From positions 83,823 through 147,822 of the forward strand of contig NZ_CP110343.1 in NCBI RefSeq assembly GCF_034359305.1: a DNA stretch of 64,000 nt, written 5' to 3'. Below the pieces are notes generated by a model. It made no database searches and was not told where the DNA came from. It saw nothing but the letters and a program-made list of their open reading frames with translations. A program made the translations under genes and the position numbers. Source of the stretch: Candidatus Fokinia cryptica (GTDB lineage Bacteria > Pseudomonadota > Alphaproteobacteria > Rickettsiales > Midichloriaceae). This document shows positions 7,482 to 24,923 of the stretch, piece by piece (the stretch's first letter is position 1; every line of letters begins with the position of its first letter).

Positions 7482-8711
7482 GTGAATCACGACGAATTCA
7501 TTACCACAAAAGCTAAAACTCGCTCAGTGCAAGTAGGCAGCATTGTAATAGGAGGAGACGCGCAAATTACAGTACAATCAATGACGGACACTATTACTAG
7601 TAACGTCAAAGACACAGTGGCTCAAATAAAGCTACTAGTAGACTCAGGAGCGGAAATTGTAAGAATTACCGTAGATAATAGTAATGCTGCGACAGCAGTA
7701 TCAGCTATAAAAGACTCTCTGATGAGAGAAGAAGCTTATGCTAAAATCCCTTTAGTTGGGTGTTTTCATTATAATGGACACATACTCTTACAAGAATCTC
7801 ATGAATGTGCATTAGCTCTAGATAAATATAGAATAAACCCCGGTAATGTGGGTACGAAGGGTAAAAGGGATAAAAATTTTGAAGAAATTCTAAAAATCGC
7901 TCAAAAATTTAACAAGCCTATTAGAATTGGTGTCAATGGAGGAAGCCTCGAACAAGAACTACTATCAGAACTCATTGAAGAAAATACACATAACAACCTA
8001 TCTATCGAACAAATAAAAAGGGAAGCTATCGTAAAATCAGCATTACTTAGTGCGCAAAAGGCAGTGTCATATGGAATGCAAGAGGATAAGATTATTTTAT
8101 CCGCTAAAGTAAGCAATCTAAGTGATGTAGTATGGGTTTACAAACAATTATCTAAGCACTCTCAATATCCATTGCACGTAGGACTAACTGAAGCAGGAAG
8201 TGGTATAGATGGAATAGTAAAAACCGCGGCAACTGTAGGGATACTTTTACATCACGGTATAGGAAATACCATACGTGTCTCTACTACATCTCATGACAGA
8301 ACTGAGGAGGTTAAAATTGCAAAAAGCATACTACAGGCACTTAATATAAGAAATTTTGCACCTTCTATTACTTCATGTCCAGGATGCGGACGTACAAGCA
8401 GTACTGCTTTTCAAACGCTCAATCTTAAGGTAAATGAGTATGTAGCGGATAAATTAGAAGAATGGAAAAAACTTTATGGAGATGAAAAAATTAGTAAATT
8501 AAAAATTGCTGTAATGGGTTGCATTGTAAATGGTCCAGGTGAAAGCAAATCAGCGGATATAGGTATTAGTATGCCAGGAAATAACGAAGAAGATTTAGCA
8601 GTAGTTTTTATAAAAGGTACAAAAAAATCCATTCTGAGAAAAACAGAAAATACTTCAATATATCAACAATTCATTACTATTTTGGAAGATTTTATAGCTT
8701 CTTCGTACTAA
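7482..8711 (+). CDS. ispG: 4-hydroxy-3-methylbut-2-enyl-diphosphate synthase
   Basis: 409 residues from a GTG start. IspG (GcpE) is the [4Fe-4S] enzyme that converts MEcPP to HMBPP in the non-mevalonate isoprenoid pathway. Seen: VQVGSIVIGGDAQITVQSMT (N-terminal signature), INPGNVGTKGKRD, IRIGVNGGSLEQ, GLTEAGSG, then the iron-sulfur cysteines in TSCPGCGRTS and in VMGCIVNGPGESK. GPGE closes the conserved motif. The product feeds the polyprenyl synthase at 17.1 kb. The GTG follows an AT-rich stretch without any Shine-Dalgarno-like sequence. Confidence 0.95.
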   Translation: MNHDEFITTKAKTRSVQVGSIVIGGDAQITVQSMTDTITSNVKDTVAQIKLLVDSGAEIVRITVDNSNAATAVSAIKDSLMREEAYAKIPLVGCFHYNGHILLQESHECALALDKYRINPGNVGTKGKRDKNFEEILKIAQKFNKPIRIGVNGGSLEQELLSELIEENTHNNLSIEQIKREAIVKSALLSAQKAVSYGMQEDKIILSAKVSNLSDVVWVYKQLSKHSQYPLHVGLTEAGSGIDGIVKTAATVGILLHHGIGNTIRVSTTSHDRTEEVKIAKSILQALNIRNFAPSITSCPGCGRTSSTAFQTLNLKVNEYVADKLEEWKKLYGDEKISKLKIAVMGCIVNGPGESKSADIGISMPGNNEEDLAVVFIKGTKKSILRKTENTSIYQQFITILEDFIASSY

Positions 8712-20402: not shown

Positions 20403-21293
20403 ATGAATATGGCTCTTAATCACAGGTATATAGTGTTATTTGTAACTTTCACATTATCGTTAGTTATTTTAGCATTTAACAGCATTTACGTTTTGCATCA
20501 AACACAGTGCGCTCTCGTTTTACAACTTGGAAAACCAGTTAAAGTCATAAAAGAACCAGGTTTACGTGTGAAACTTCCATTTATACAGAATGTTATTTTC
20601 TTTGATAGAAGAATACAAAATATCACTTTTTCGTCTAATGACGCAAATGAATTCGTTACTGCAGAACAAAAGACAATGAAAGCAGATGCATACTGTAAGT
20701 ATAGAATTGTTGAACCATTGCGTTTTTATGAATCGGTAAATAATGAATATGTTTTTAGAGAAAGATTGTTGGCTGTCATAGAATCTTCTCTTCGCAAGAT
20801 AATAGGTAGCGTTTCGTTCAATGATGTACTGAGAGAAAATAGAAAAATAGTGATAGAGAAGGTTTTACTAAATGTAAAAACGCAAATGAGAGCTTTTGGT
20901 ATTGAAGTAATTGATGTGAGGCTTGTGAGTGTGCAATTACCGGAAAAAGCACTGAAAGCAGTTTATGAAAGAATGAAAACGGATAGAGAAAAAGAAGCTG
21001 TTGAGATACGTTCGCAAGGAGCAGCTCAGGCTAAATTAGTAAGAACAACAGCCGAAAAGGATTGTGAACTTATTATAGCTGAAGCTGAGAGACGAGCACA
21101 GGAAATTATGGGAGAAGGAGATGCAGAAGCAGCAAAGATCGTCGCAGCTGCAGCTGCTTCAGATAAAGACTTTTACGTATTCTACAAAAGAATTGAAGGG
21201 TATAAAAAGGCACTTTCTAATAAAACATATTTCTTACTTTCTGATGAAATGGGTTTTTTAGATACCTTCTTCAAAGGTGTGAAAAATGAGTAA
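20403..21293 (+). CDS. hflC: HflC, SPFH/band-7 membrane protein
   Basis: 296 residues with one N-terminal membrane segment (about 8-30). HflC and HflK form a large periplasm-facing cage around the FtsH protease and modulate it. Seen: TQCALVLQLGKPVKVIKEPG LRVKLPF (family: ALVxRFGKxxxxxxPGLHxK), the SPFH domain, AVYERMKTDREKEAVEIRSQG, AEAERRAQEIMGEGDAEAAKI and DFYVFYKRIEGYKKAL. These C-terminal motifs are HflC rather than HflK. HflK normally precedes it, but here the gene upstream is the BamE-like one. It overlaps the next gene by 8 bp. Confidence 0.88.
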   Translation: MNMALNHRYIVLFVTFTLSLVILAFNSIYVLHQTQCALVLQLGKPVKVIKEPGLRVKLPFIQNVIFFDRRIQNITFSSNDANEFVTAEQKTMKADAYCKYRIVEPLRFYESVNNEYVFRERLLAVIESSLRKIIGSVSFNDVLRENRKIVIEKVLLNVKTQMRAFGIEVIDVRLVSVQLPEKALKAVYERMKTDREKEAVEIRSQGAAQAKLVRTTAEKDCELIIAEAERRAQEIMGEGDAEAAKIVAAAAASDKDFYVFYKRIEGYKKALSNKTYFLLSDEMGFLDTFFKGVKNE

Positions 21294-21882
21294 GATGAAG
21301 CATATGAAAAAATTACTTATCGTAAAAGATTGTTATAGCGAAGCGGATAATAATTTATTATGCAGTATCGAAGATGTGAGCTTTTTCGTTTATGTTGGAA
21401 AGCTGTATTGCAATAATATAGACGATAAAGTTAAGGTTATAGAATCTGTAAAACAAGATGTTGCTAGTGTGTACGATGTTAAGCATCTTACTGAATTGAG
21501 CAATGAATGCGACTGCGTACTTCTATTAGACAGACTTGGTAATAGCTTTTACGAATATACAAAAGTCGCGTTATGCTATTTGGCAGCTTTAAAAGATAAG
21601 GCTGTCTTAATTAACAGCAACATATTTACCAACACCTTTCTTAGACTCAGCAATCATCAAATAAGAAAATGGTATGTTTTTGGCACCGTTGATAGTAAAT
21701 ACTTTAGTAATTGCAATTACAGGCTCACTTTAGCAGATTCTGAACTAAACTCTGTTAATTTCGTTTTATTCGATAAAGAATATAACTCAGAACTGAATTT
21801 GATGAAAAAAAACTTTAGTAATACTCTTAATACAGCAGTTGATATAGCTTTTTCTTTTTATAATCAACAAAATTTCTTTTAA
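21286..21882 (+). CDS. Protein of unknown function, overlapping hflC
   Basis: 198 residues; not recognised. The ATG at 21286 overlaps the hflC stop by 8 bp, so translational coupling is likely; ATGs at 21295 and 21304 are alternatives. No signal peptide or strong membrane segment is apparent. It is rich in Asn, Leu and Ser with several Cys, and alternates hydrophobic strands and helices (KKLLIVKDCY at the start, CDCVLLLDRLGN mid-way, KAVLINSNIF), which would suit a small alpha/beta fold. In many alphaproteobacteria hflC is followed by a Deg-type protease; this is not one. Confidence 0.7.
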   Translation: MSKMKHMKKLLIVKDCYSEADNNLLCSIEDVSFFVYVGKLYCNNIDDKVKVIESVKQDVASVYDVKHLTELSNECDCVLLLDRLGNSFYEYTKVALCYLAALKDKAVLINSNIFTNTFLRLSNHQIRKWYVFGTVDSKYFSNCNYRLTLADSELNSVNFVLFDKEYNSELNLMKKNFSNTLNTAVDIAFSFYNQQNFF

Positions 21883-21981: not shown

Positions 21982-22389
21982 GTGTCAGATCAATTTCACA
22001 TTAGCGGATACGCTACAGTTTTTGAACATTATGATCTAAATAATGATGTCATCAAACCACATGCTTTTGAAAATCCTATTCCCTCTACATTACCACTGCT
22101 GTGGGAACATGCTTCTAATCAGCCAGTAGGATATACTACAAGCATAGAACAAGATGAATATGGATTATATATAAGTGCATTAATAATACTAACAACAAAA
22201 ACTGCAAGAGAAGTAAAAAATCTTATATGTGATTCAAATATCAGAGGACTAAGTATAGGATTTATACCAATCTCAACTAAATCTGATCCTCGTACACCAT
22301 GTCGTATAATACATAAAGCAAAATTATTAGAGATAAGTATTGTCACAATACCATCTAATTATTTAGCTCATATTACGTACTTCGGCTAA
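21982..22389 (+). CDS. HK97-type prohead protease, GTA-like (g4 position)
   Basis: 135 residues. Prohead proteases trim the capsid scaffold during phage or gene-transfer-agent head maturation. Seen: ISGYATVFEHYDLNNDVIKPHAF (family: GYASVFGxxDxxGDVVxPGAF), PLLWEHASNQPVGYT (catalytic His), NIRGLSIGFIP (catalytic Ser) and LLEISIVTIPSN (family: L-E-VSLVTxPAN). The GTG start directly follows an in-frame TGA. The length is about that of the catalytic core alone, so tail extensions found in phages are lacking. It is the first of five head genes ending at 24923. Confidence 0.85.
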   Translation: MSDQFHISGYATVFEHYDLNNDVIKPHAFENPIPSTLPLLWEHASNQPVGYTTSIEQDEYGLYISALIILTTKTAREVKNLICDSNIRGLSIGFIPISTKSDPRTPCRIIHKAKLLEISIVTIPSNYLAHITYFG

Positions 22390-22394
22390 AAAAA

Positions 22395-22471
22395 TGGTGG
22401 GTGATAGCGGACTCGAACCACTGACCTCTACGATGTCAACGTAGTGCTCTAACCACCTGAGCTAATCACCC
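22395..22471 (-). tRNA. tRNA-Val (anticodon GAC)
   Basis: Read on the minus strand it folds as a cloverleaf: acceptor GGGTGAT pairs with ATCACCC, the anticodon stem CTACG/CGTAG encloses loop TTGACAT (anticodon GAC), the T-arm contains GGTTCGAGTCC, and the discriminator A is followed by an encoded CCA (22395-22397). It lies antisense between the GTA protease and capsid genes, 5 bp after the protease stop. Confidence 0.95.
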
Positions 22472-22538
22472 AATCACACACTGCATAATATACATAACGT
22501 GATAAAAAACAATATTCTAAACAAATTATCGATAAATA

Positions 22539-23609
22539 ATGAATACTGAAAATCTTCAATCAAATCAGCAAGCAATCTATCATGAAAAGATAGCTAATTT
22601 AGAAAATATACAAAAAGACTTTGCTAAGAAAATGTCACAGATCGAACGTCTAGTACAGAAAAATGTCACAGATAATGCTGTACCAGTACCTAGATATACA
22701 ACATCTGACAGTCATTTAACATCCTATATGAGATATGCAAAATTGGAATATGATCATAAAAATGCTAATGATTATGAAATCAAAGGTTCCCCAAATGCAT
22801 TTATACCAAAAGAAGAAATAAAAGAACGGTTATACTCTAAAGTATCCGCATTATCTCCAATACATAAATTATCTAAAAAAGTTTTTACCACTACAAGCGT
22901 ATTTGAATACATAAAACCTTCTACTACTCAAACTGCAAAATGGATTACTAATTCTGATGATAATTTAAATAAAAACGAAATTACATTTCAGCATCATAAA
23001 ATACCAGTTTTTGATTTGGAAACTACTTCACGTACTACTCAAACAATGTTAGATGATTTGAGCTTTGATGTAGAAGAGTGGTTTTTGAATGAAGTATCTA
23101 TGAAGTTCGCTACAATAGAAGAAGAGGCTTTTCTTCATGGTGATGGAAAAACTATGCCTTCAGGAATATTAAATAATAAAGACATAGGTACTGCAGAAAT
23201 CTCCATAAGTTCACTATCTATCGATCATTTTATTGAGCTATTTTATTCTTTAGAAGAACGATTTTCTCAAAATGCCACTTTTATTATTAGCCCTAAAGTG
23301 GCTAAAACATTAGCAAAGCTAAAAGATAGCAGTGGAAAGTATATTATCGATTCTATACCAAGAAATGGAATTACAAAGTTATTAAATATGAACGTCGTAA
23401 TTTCTCAAAATATGCAACGCGAAAATATCAATACAATTCTTTTTGGGAATTTTGAAGAAGGATATCTTATAGTGGAAAGGCAAGAAATTCGCATATTGAG
23501 AAATCCATACATTGATCAAAGATGCATAACATTTTATGTGACTAGAAGACTTGGTGGCGATGTAATACAACCTACAGCGTTTAAAAAACTAAAATTGCTC
23601 AATAAATAG
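22539..23609 (+). CDS. HK97-family major capsid protein, GTA-like (g5 position)
   Basis: 356 residues. It would form the shell of a phage or GTA head. Seen: an N-terminal coiled coil (about 5-45) that acts as the scaffold delta domain, then the HK97 fold: LSPIHKLSKKVFTTTSVFEY, AKWITNSDDN, VFDLETTSRTTQTMLDDL, EEAFLHGDGKTMPSGILN (family: A-F-xGDGxxxPxGIL) and the C-terminal FGNFEEGYLIVERQEIRILRNPY (family: GDFxxGYxIxDRxGxxVxRDPY). It is intact end to end. The stop codon abuts the next ATG with no gap. Confidence 0.9.
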   Translation: MNTENLQSNQQAIYHEKIANLENIQKDFAKKMSQIERLVQKNVTDNAVPVPRYTTSDSHLTSYMRYAKLEYDHKNANDYEIKGSPNAFIPKEEIKERLYSKVSALSPIHKLSKKVFTTTSVFEYIKPSTTQTAKWITNSDDNLNKNEITFQHHKIPVFDLETTSRTTQTMLDDLSFDVEEWFLNEVSMKFATIEEEAFLHGDGKTMPSGILNNKDIGTAEISISSLSIDHFIELFYSLEERFSQNATFIISPKVAKTLAKLKDSSGKYIIDSIPRNGITKLLNMNVVISQNMQRENINTILFGNFEEGYLIVERQEIRILRNPYIDQRCITFYVTRRLGGDVIQPTAFKKLKLLNK

Positions 23610-24116
23610 ATGAGCTTTTCATATTCACTACCGTTATCTATAGAAGAGATAAAGCTTTTTCTCAGAATAGAGCATGATGAAGATAATGAGTTGCTTAATG
23701 CGTTACAATTCTTTTCTATCAAAAAACTAGAAGCATATCTCAACATAGCGATAATACCTCAAGTTTATAAATACAAATTTGCTGAAGCAAAAAACTCCGT
23801 AATACTGCCGGTAATTCCTGCAATTGAGATACAAAAAATTGTAACTCATAACGGAACTATAATTAGAGAAATTACAAACTTAAATACAAAAATAATAGAT
23901 GAAGAAGTAGTAGAAGGCTTACCAAAGTTACTAGCCGATTATCTAACAATTTACTATATTGCTGGTAATTATTTTGCGAGTAAATATACATATCACATGA
24001 AGTATTGCTTATTAGAAGTAATAGAATGTGAGTATAACAACAAAAATAAAAAGCCTAATAACGCATTAGATAGTACATTGCGGAAATATTCGGCATTCAA
24101 AAGATATAAAATATAA
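23610..24116 (+). CDS. Head-tail connector/adaptor, GTA-like (g6 position)
   Basis: 168 residues. Seen: the gp6/phiE125-type start LSIEEIKLFLRIEHDEDNEL LNAL (family: L-EVKxHLRVD-xxEDxLL), then LEAYLNIAIIPQVYKY (family: AExYTGRALIxQTW) and VILPVIPAIEIQKIVTHNG (family: LPxxPVxSVxxVxxxD). These proteins form a ring between portal and tail. The ATG begins directly after the capsid stop. Sequence identity is low, but the motif order and genomic position agree. Confidence 0.78.
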   Translation: MSFSYSLPLSIEEIKLFLRIEHDEDNELLNALQFFSIKKLEAYLNIAIIPQVYKYKFAEAKNSVILPVIPAIEIQKIVTHNGTIIREITNLNTKIIDEEVVEGLPKLLADYLTIYYIAGNYFASKYTYHMKYCLLEVIECEYNNKNKKPNNALDSTLRKYSAFKRYKI

Positions 24117-24127
24117 ATATAAAGCAT

Positions 24128-24535
24128 ATGGAAATACCAATTATTATTGAGAAATTTAACCCATCTATATTGGAATTCGGAAATATAAAAGATACATGGA
24201 TAAATCCGCTGAAAATATGGGGGAAACTTATCAGTACAGAAATTGATAAGATAGAAAATAGATATCTACAAAAAACAAAGATTTCAATAAATAATACATC
24301 TCACATGAGATATATAATTCGAGCAATAACTGAAGAAGGGGAAACAATAAGAGCAAAATATATAAGTAAAGATAAGTTACTCGGATATATAACATCTATA
24401 GAAATTGATGAAGAAAACAGTAGTTGTATTTTCATATGTTCTAAAATATCTACTTATTATAAATATGATGAAAACAAAAACTCCACTATATCTCCTTACT
24501 CAAATAGAGGAATTACTGAAAAGTCATTCTTATAA
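24128..24535 (+). CDS. Probable head-closure (stopper) protein, GTA-like (g7 position)
   Basis: 135 residues. The call rests mostly on position: in the Rhodobacter GTA the gene after the adaptor encodes the small stopper of the phage head-tail-adaptor family. What can be seen is compatible: WINPLKIWGKLISTEID (family: W-xxxVWAxIxP), then YIIRAITEEGETIRAKYISKD and a strand-rich end. No signal peptide or membrane segment. Its last 71 bp overlap the next gene, a compression not expected if both were decaying freely. Confidence 0.55.
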   Translation: MEIPIIIEKFNPSILEFGNIKDTWINPLKIWGKLISTEIDKIENRYLQKTKISINNTSHMRYIIRAITEEGETIRAKYISKDKLLGYITSIEIDEENSSCIFICSKISTYYKYDENKNSTISPYSNRGITEKSFL

Positions 24536-24923
24536 CCTCTCACCTGTCTGCATATCACAACATGATACAAATATAAAATCTTCTAATAATATAGATAAAA
24601 ATACTGGATATTATTTTTTCTCTGAATCAGATACTGAATACTTTACTCCTTCTCTTACTATAAAGGCACTTGATATAGATAAAACTTCTCACTTTACGTT
24701 TGAGTCATATTTGCTACATGTAACTATCAACATAGTAAATGAAAAACATAAGAATAATGAAAAATTATTAAAAATAGTATCAAATTTAATGCTTTCTTTA
24801 ACTAATGAGAACATAAAAATATCTAAGCATGTGATAAAAACATCTCATCACAATAATTATAAAAATATGGAAGTTCTATTCACATATAATACATATCTTT
24901 ATTACTATCCTAATCAAAAATAA
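24465..24923 (+). CDS. Probable tail-terminator, DUF3168-like (g8 position)
   Basis: The frame opens at 24405, but the paired ATGs at 24465 and 24468 give the expected start MKTKTPLYLLTQIEELLKSH (family: L-x-AIxxxL). About 152 residues. Further seen: SLTIKALDIDKTSHFTFESYLLHVTINI (family: H-xQTxxVTVHVWS) and the terminal YKNMEVLFTYNTYLYY (family: R-xxTRF). Similarity is weak and position carries much of the weight. The next expected GTA gene, the tail tube (g9), is absent: xthA follows on the opposite strand 16 bp later. Confidence 0.55.
   Translation: MMKTKTPLYLLTQIEELLKSHSYNLSPVCISQHDTNIKSSNNIDKNTGYYFFSESDTEYFTPSLTIKALDIDKTSHFTFESYLLHVTINIVNEKHKNNEKLLKIVSNLMLSLTNENIKISKHVIKTSHHNNYKNMEVLFTYNTYLYYYPNQK

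Follow-up and report, generated by a model that had tools for sequence, protein, structure and literature searches.

The window analysed here is a stretch of 64,000 nucleotides from Candidatus Fokinia cryptica, positions 83,823-147,822 of a single 815,586-bp contig. It carries a head-neck block of five protein genes, assigned (the last two as probable) to g4-g8 of the gene transfer agent (GTA) of Rhodobacter capsulatus (RcGTA; g1-g15; PDB 6tba), together with one tRNA gene. In window coordinates the features are:

21982..22389, plus strand: g4-type HK97 prohead (head maturation) protease, 135 aa, GTG start
22395..22471, minus strand: tRNA-Val(GAC) gene, between g4 and g5 and antisense to both
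22539..23609, plus strand: g5, major capsid protein (HK97 type), 356 aa
23610..24116, plus strand: g6, head-tail adaptor, 168 aa
24128..24535, plus strand: g7, probable head closure (stopper) protein, 135 aa
24465..24923, plus strand: g8, probable tail terminator, 152 aa from the ATG at 24465

The coordinates, strand and order of the five genes are those that an earlier note had given from the open reading frame list, and the layout it described also holds: g5 ends at 23609 and g6 starts at 23610, directly abutting, and g7 and g8 overlap by 71 bp (24465-24535). The genes do follow the RcGTA order, as that note claimed; what it overlooked is the tRNA-Val gene between g4 and g5.

Sequence comparison firmly identifies the protease, the capsid and the adaptor. 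The g4 product matches PF04586 (Peptidase_S78; 1.5e-25), phrog_80 (1.7e-34) and TIGR01543 (3.1e-23), and carries putative catalytic residues at the expected positions (His43 in LLWEHA, Ser91 in LSIGF); an orthologue lies 5' of the capsid gene in 12 relatives. The capsid protein belongs to PF05065 (Phage_capsid; 7.8e-54) and TIGR01554 (1.4e-62). The adaptor is weak in Pfam (5e-4), NCBIfam (TIGR02215, 6.9e-6) and phrog_40 (2.7e-5); its phmmer matches to the post-capsid genes of relatives reach 5.8e-12, and the profile of GTA g6 proteins recovers it at E 2.8e-17.

The closure and terminator calls, also made in the earlier note, are weak by sequence and are backed by position and predicted fold. 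Neither g7 nor g8 gives a significant match to a known family. Against the matching GTA profiles they rank 3 and 2 among 1029 sequences (shuffles plus window ORFs), with E of about 1 and 5. An HHpred-type check of 24128-24923, proposed in the earlier note, gives weak results: single-sequence hhalign against the relatives' profiles returns P 0.016 for g7, collinear across 79 columns, and P 0.027 for g8, with a match spanning just 27 columns. The AlphaFold model of g7 (pLDDT 70) is a beta-barrel whose top PDB matches are 2kz4, SPP1 gp16 and other stoppers or head-completion proteins, with RcGTA 6tba listed among them; for the g8 model (pLDDT 72), the PDB matches at E<0.001 are nearly all tail terminators or phage neck proteins. 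This fold support is partly circular, as the input alignments for both models included true GTA g7 and g8 proteins. Elsewhere in the family, g6 is followed by a gene for a Phage_HCP head closure protein (1.4e-19) and then by one for a tail terminator (phrog_176, 5.3e-12), and the g7/g8 overlap likewise occurs in some relatives. Position, profile rank and predicted fold together make head closure the probable identity of g7 and tail terminator that of g8.

The block's neighbours within about 4 kb (dnaA, a band-7 gene, a gene of exonuclease III type and rho) are cellular genes. No integrase, replication or regulator gene is found beside the block in these near flanks. Immediately upstream, window positions 21286-21882 (plus strand) encode a 198-aa protein of unknown kind with no Pfam match. 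In many of the relatives' genera an EVE/THYN1-like gene (by sequence) lies divergently just upstream of g4; one genus has an lptE-like gene between g5 and g6; and the neck genes of relatives are followed by a protein of 63-93 aa with a C-terminal hydrophobic segment (loci L024, L025, L027, L028 and L029 for these three observations).

The tRNA-Val(GAC) gene is detected by ARAGORN and scores 65.8 bits against Rfam RF00005. A tRNA-Val(GAC) adjoins the capsid gene in 14 of the 17 relatives' loci (L022-L029, L031-L035 and L037), is antisense in 13, and in every locus that has a g4 sits between that gene and g5; these copies share 66-72 of 77 bases with that of the window. The other alphaproteobacterial GTA loci that were inspected have no such tRNA at the g4/g5 position. 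Its insertion is thus probably a trait of the family, with the head block of the window being the inherited one. Individual loci vary in detail: in L025 the tRNA shares 50 bp with the 3' end of the protease frame, and in L023 (genome G018) g4 and g5 are separated by a transposase-like insertion-element gene, located 640-1854 bases before the capsid gene, with ribosomal protein genes after the capsid. Expression of the block would involve read-through from g4 to g5 across the antisense tRNA, or a separate promoter for g5-g8; no strong promoter stands out.

The earlier note had stated that the terminase, the portal and all tail genes after g8 are missing at this place. Locally this is correct, and only the five genes are adjacent; the terminase, the portal, g12, g13 and g15 lie elsewhere on the contig, 120-285 kb from the head block. 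The GTA genes thus occupy five separate blocks (g4-g8; g2; g3; g12-g13; g15). The four blocks outside the window are, in contig coordinates and with the strand where given:

229,696-231,174: g2, terminase (TerL), 492 aa, 39% identical to relatives' terminases
247,796-249,040, minus strand: g3, portal, 414 aa, family match 2.9e-75, best PDB relative RcGTA Rcc01684 (9.7e-64)
300,671-303,283: g15, megatron protein with GTA TIM barrel, 870 aa
389,759-391,236: g12 and g13, distal tail and hub proteins, adjacent

The terminase was located with a relative's TerL as query, and the other genes by family searches of the genome; for tail genes these covered g9 and g12-g15. Of the g2, g3 and g9-g15 homologues that the earlier note had suggested looking for, g2, g3, g12, g13 and g15 are recovered intact, and g9 and g14 were not detected. 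The g12 product matches DUF2460 (8e-37), the NCBIfam Rcc01695 family TIGR02217 (3.9e-32, under the cut-off) and PDB Rcc01695 (1e-15). For g13, TIGR02218 ('phage/gene transfer agent baseplate hub protein') is above cut-off; its best PDB relatives, both weak, are a hub protein of entry 8gtc and the RcGTA hub. The g15 product matches GTA_TIM (8e-47), GTA_megatron (562.7 bits, 1.9e-168, under the 800-bit cut-off because the protein is shortened) and PDB 6tba (1.5e-73); it is without the C-terminal Rcc01698 domain present in long relatives. A length of 870 aa is found here and in another genus (G002, G006), versus 1150-1250 aa elsewhere in the family (870-aa frames at L075:8672-11284 and L078:8824-11436).

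The terminase belongs to phrog_38, unlike RcGTA g2, and neither the RcGTA type (PF03237 and PF17289; Terminase_6N and 6C) nor phrog_2 finds a terminase in the genome. Two alphaproteobacterial loci likewise have a phrog_38-type terminase next to GTA-like portals, so the Fokinia enzyme is plausibly the agent's own. Throughout the bacterial family the GTA-associated terminase is phrog_38 (L101:1513-2991; relatives L089-L107), and in three congeneric relatives (L103-L105) it carries extra sequence, with frames of 636-673 aa. For the tail tube gene g9 and the NlpC/P60-type peptidase gene g14, a joint profile finds no match in the genome, and the same profile matches 20 of the 23 family genomes. The slot just upstream of g15, which holds g14 in several relatives, is taken by a folD-like gene. 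Judged by sequence divergence, a g9 may be present and escape detection, as g7 and g8 nearly do.

The reading frames are well preserved. Across the ten GTA genes, about 3,100 codons, there is no stop or frameshift in the Fokinia genome. When neutral change is simulated, 4% of runs retain all five window frames at 0.02 changes per site, and 0 of 300 do so at 0.05; under this model, chance or free decay of these frames is excluded. Eight GTA genes have a ratio of own-to-relative to relative-to-relative distance of 1.15-1.85, and rho, the one control gene, has 1.90; the whole lineage is fast, and the GTA genes are not faster. Fokinia distances to other genera are saturated, and dN/dS was taken from congeneric pairs of relatives, not from the Fokinia lineage itself: the capsid has 0.04-0.09, and the GTA genes as a whole span 0.04-0.53, with the highest values in the small neck genes. 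These values, obtained for the comparison among relatives that the earlier note had put forward, indicate purifying selection and are not near 1. Its view that frames free of stop codons are held by selection agrees with these results, and simple decay of the GTA genes is unlikely.

The family is Midichloriaceae, and its genomes include Candidatus Anadelfobacter sociabilis and a Candidatus Jidaibacter. The capsid gene is present in 18 of the 23 family genomes, Fokinia included. The order g3-g4-g5-g6-g7-g8-g9 recurs in relatives, where g12-g13, g14-g15 and the terminase lie either close by or at a distance. The GTA lies in about three blocks in some relatives and in five in Fokinia. PDB comparisons place RcGTA virion chains nearest to the capsid, portal, g12 and g15 proteins; for capsid and portal these are far ahead of phage entries (for the capsid, RcGTA Rcc01687, 6tb9, at 6.7e-32 versus 1.8e-14 for the next non-GTA entry). 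A search of IMG/VR gave no capsid relative above 29% identity. The portal and g15 trees unite Fokinia with Midichloriaceae (support 100/98 and 100). These two trees and the common tRNA-Val point to vertical descent with the host. The capsid tree was rejected as proof of such descent: the branch of the Fokinia capsid is 3.1-3.4 changes per site long and groups with that of a Streptococcus phage, itself long. With the Streptococcus phage removed, the family placement is neither supported nor rejected (p-AU 0.38 for a single clade); the capsid alone evolves too fast to be placed. Loss is under way in the family, as some relatives carry individual broken GTA genes. Terminase genes carry stop codons or splits in some of them, and g9 is frameshifted in G017 (L022, about 7540-7950) and intact in its congener G016, so loss proceeds gene by gene.

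Compared with RcGTA, the Fokinia genome holds homologues of g3, g4, g5, g6, g12, g13 and g15, and probably of g7 and g8, and its g4-g8 follow the RcGTA order. It differs in having five blocks instead of one cluster, a phrog_38 terminase, a tRNA-Val between g4 and g5 and a shortened g15. Among the features of an RcGTA-type large-cluster GTA, the capsid and portal lineage and g12, g13 and g15 are found, and an RcGTA-family g2, g9 and g14 are not. A compact GTA cluster occurs in 0 of 70 Rickettsiales genomes (PMC6821227). A study of Wolbachia, Anaplasma, Ehrlichia and Rickettsia describes their GTA genes as dispersed, vertically inherited and intact, with terminase, portal, capsid, connector and TIM-barrel genes in the dispersed set, and cites Lang and Beatty 2007 (Bordenstein and Bordenstein 2022, PMC9203015). 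Set against that description, the Fokinia loci are likewise scattered, with intact reading frames and vertical descent; unlike them, they belong to another Rickettsiales family and keep a five-gene head-neck block together. In Orientia tsutsugamushi, a terminase, a TIM-barrel protein, a portal, a DUF2163 protein, a capsid and a protease are conserved in all genomes at separate loci (PMC10732058); to these six reported genes Fokinia adds the adaptor, the DUF2460 protein and probably the closure and terminator proteins. Scattered GTA genes are thus already known from Wolbachia, Orientia and other Rickettsiales, and Fokinia joins that kind.

A full-text literature search, itself incomplete, found no paper on GTA genes in Midichloriaceae and none on a tRNA-Val within a GTA head block; the embedded tRNA anchor appears to be undescribed in searchable papers. 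A 2022 paper, which by its title reportedly concerns GTAs in endosymbionts of microbial eukaryotes, may already cover Fokinia or a related genome.

The best explanation is an ancient, vertically inherited, RcGTA-derived GTA that has been split into five chromosomal blocks in a Midichloriaceae-type endosymbiont (probability roughly 0.85). The earlier note had left a vestige, a split GTA and a co-opted particle side by side; the split GTA is favoured because homologues of g2, g3, g12, g13 and g15 are intact in four other blocks, and the vestige fits poorly and co-option is unneeded. The intact homologues, their order, their vertical placement and the lack of any sign of GTA-specific relaxation are observations. 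By analogy with RcGTA, the five blocks would be expressed together and their parts made in trans: the protease would mature the capsid shell, the portal and terminase would load chromosomal DNA into the heads, the neck would be sealed by the adaptor, closure and terminator proteins (g6-g8), and g12, g13 and g15 would form the tail tip or distal end. Particle formation, a complete tail and DNA transfer are putative features of the agent. Several points count against this explanation: g9 and g14 are undetected, g15 is without its C-terminal domain, the terminase family differs, the capsid branch is very long and the capsid tree by itself does not place Fokinia, and the rate comparison uses one housekeeping gene as control.

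Some of these points can be read in other ways. A decaying vestige would be a GTA that stopped working and lost g9, g14 and the g15 C-terminus, with the remaining genes not yet broken. The missing genes, the shortened g15, the long capsid branch and the single GTA genes broken in several relatives suit it, as does the essential tRNA-Val gene between g4 and g5, which would make deletion of the head block costly. However, that tRNA could guard g4-g5 alone against deletion and cannot account for open frames in five separate blocks; with about 3,100 codons free of stops and frameshifts, no GTA-specific acceleration relative to rho and purifying selection in congeneric relatives, a vestige is improbable. 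Alternatively, head, neck and baseplate-tip proteins may have been kept for a job other than DNA transfer, for instance as a capsid without a tail or as a device for injection or lysis. Such co-option would account for an undetected tail tube and g14 beside intact head and tip genes, and for a g15 C-terminal domain gone here as in one relative genus; yet the terminase and portal, needless for a DNA-free shell, are intact and conserved, and g9 may merely be too diverged to recognise, which leaves it very improbable.

A further arrangement would be a tube-less, DNA-filled GTA particle, in which head, neck, packaging motor and baseplate tip are kept, the tail tube and the g14 cell-wall peptidase are lost, and the particle is used between or within closely packed cells in the eukaryotic host; this variant is unlikely. 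A remnant of an ordinary prophage integrated in the Fokinia lineage is barely credible: all the genes are phage-derived in a wide sense, but the capsid and portal are nearest to RcGTA and family-mates, the same tRNA-flanked order recurs in most sequenced genera of the family, and the near flanks hold none of the integrase, replication or regulator genes noted above.

With the split GTA of Fokinia, the scattered yet maintained GTAs known from Rickettsiales come to include one in a 0.8-Mb Midichloriaceae genome, with most of the gene list present. The step from about three blocks in some relatives to five here illustrates the stepwise fragmentation of such an agent, and the tRNA-Val marker provides a simple way to locate the head block in new Midichloriaceae genomes. 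Should assembly in trans still take place, a route for DNA exchange may exist in obligate intracellular bacteria deemed genetically isolated.
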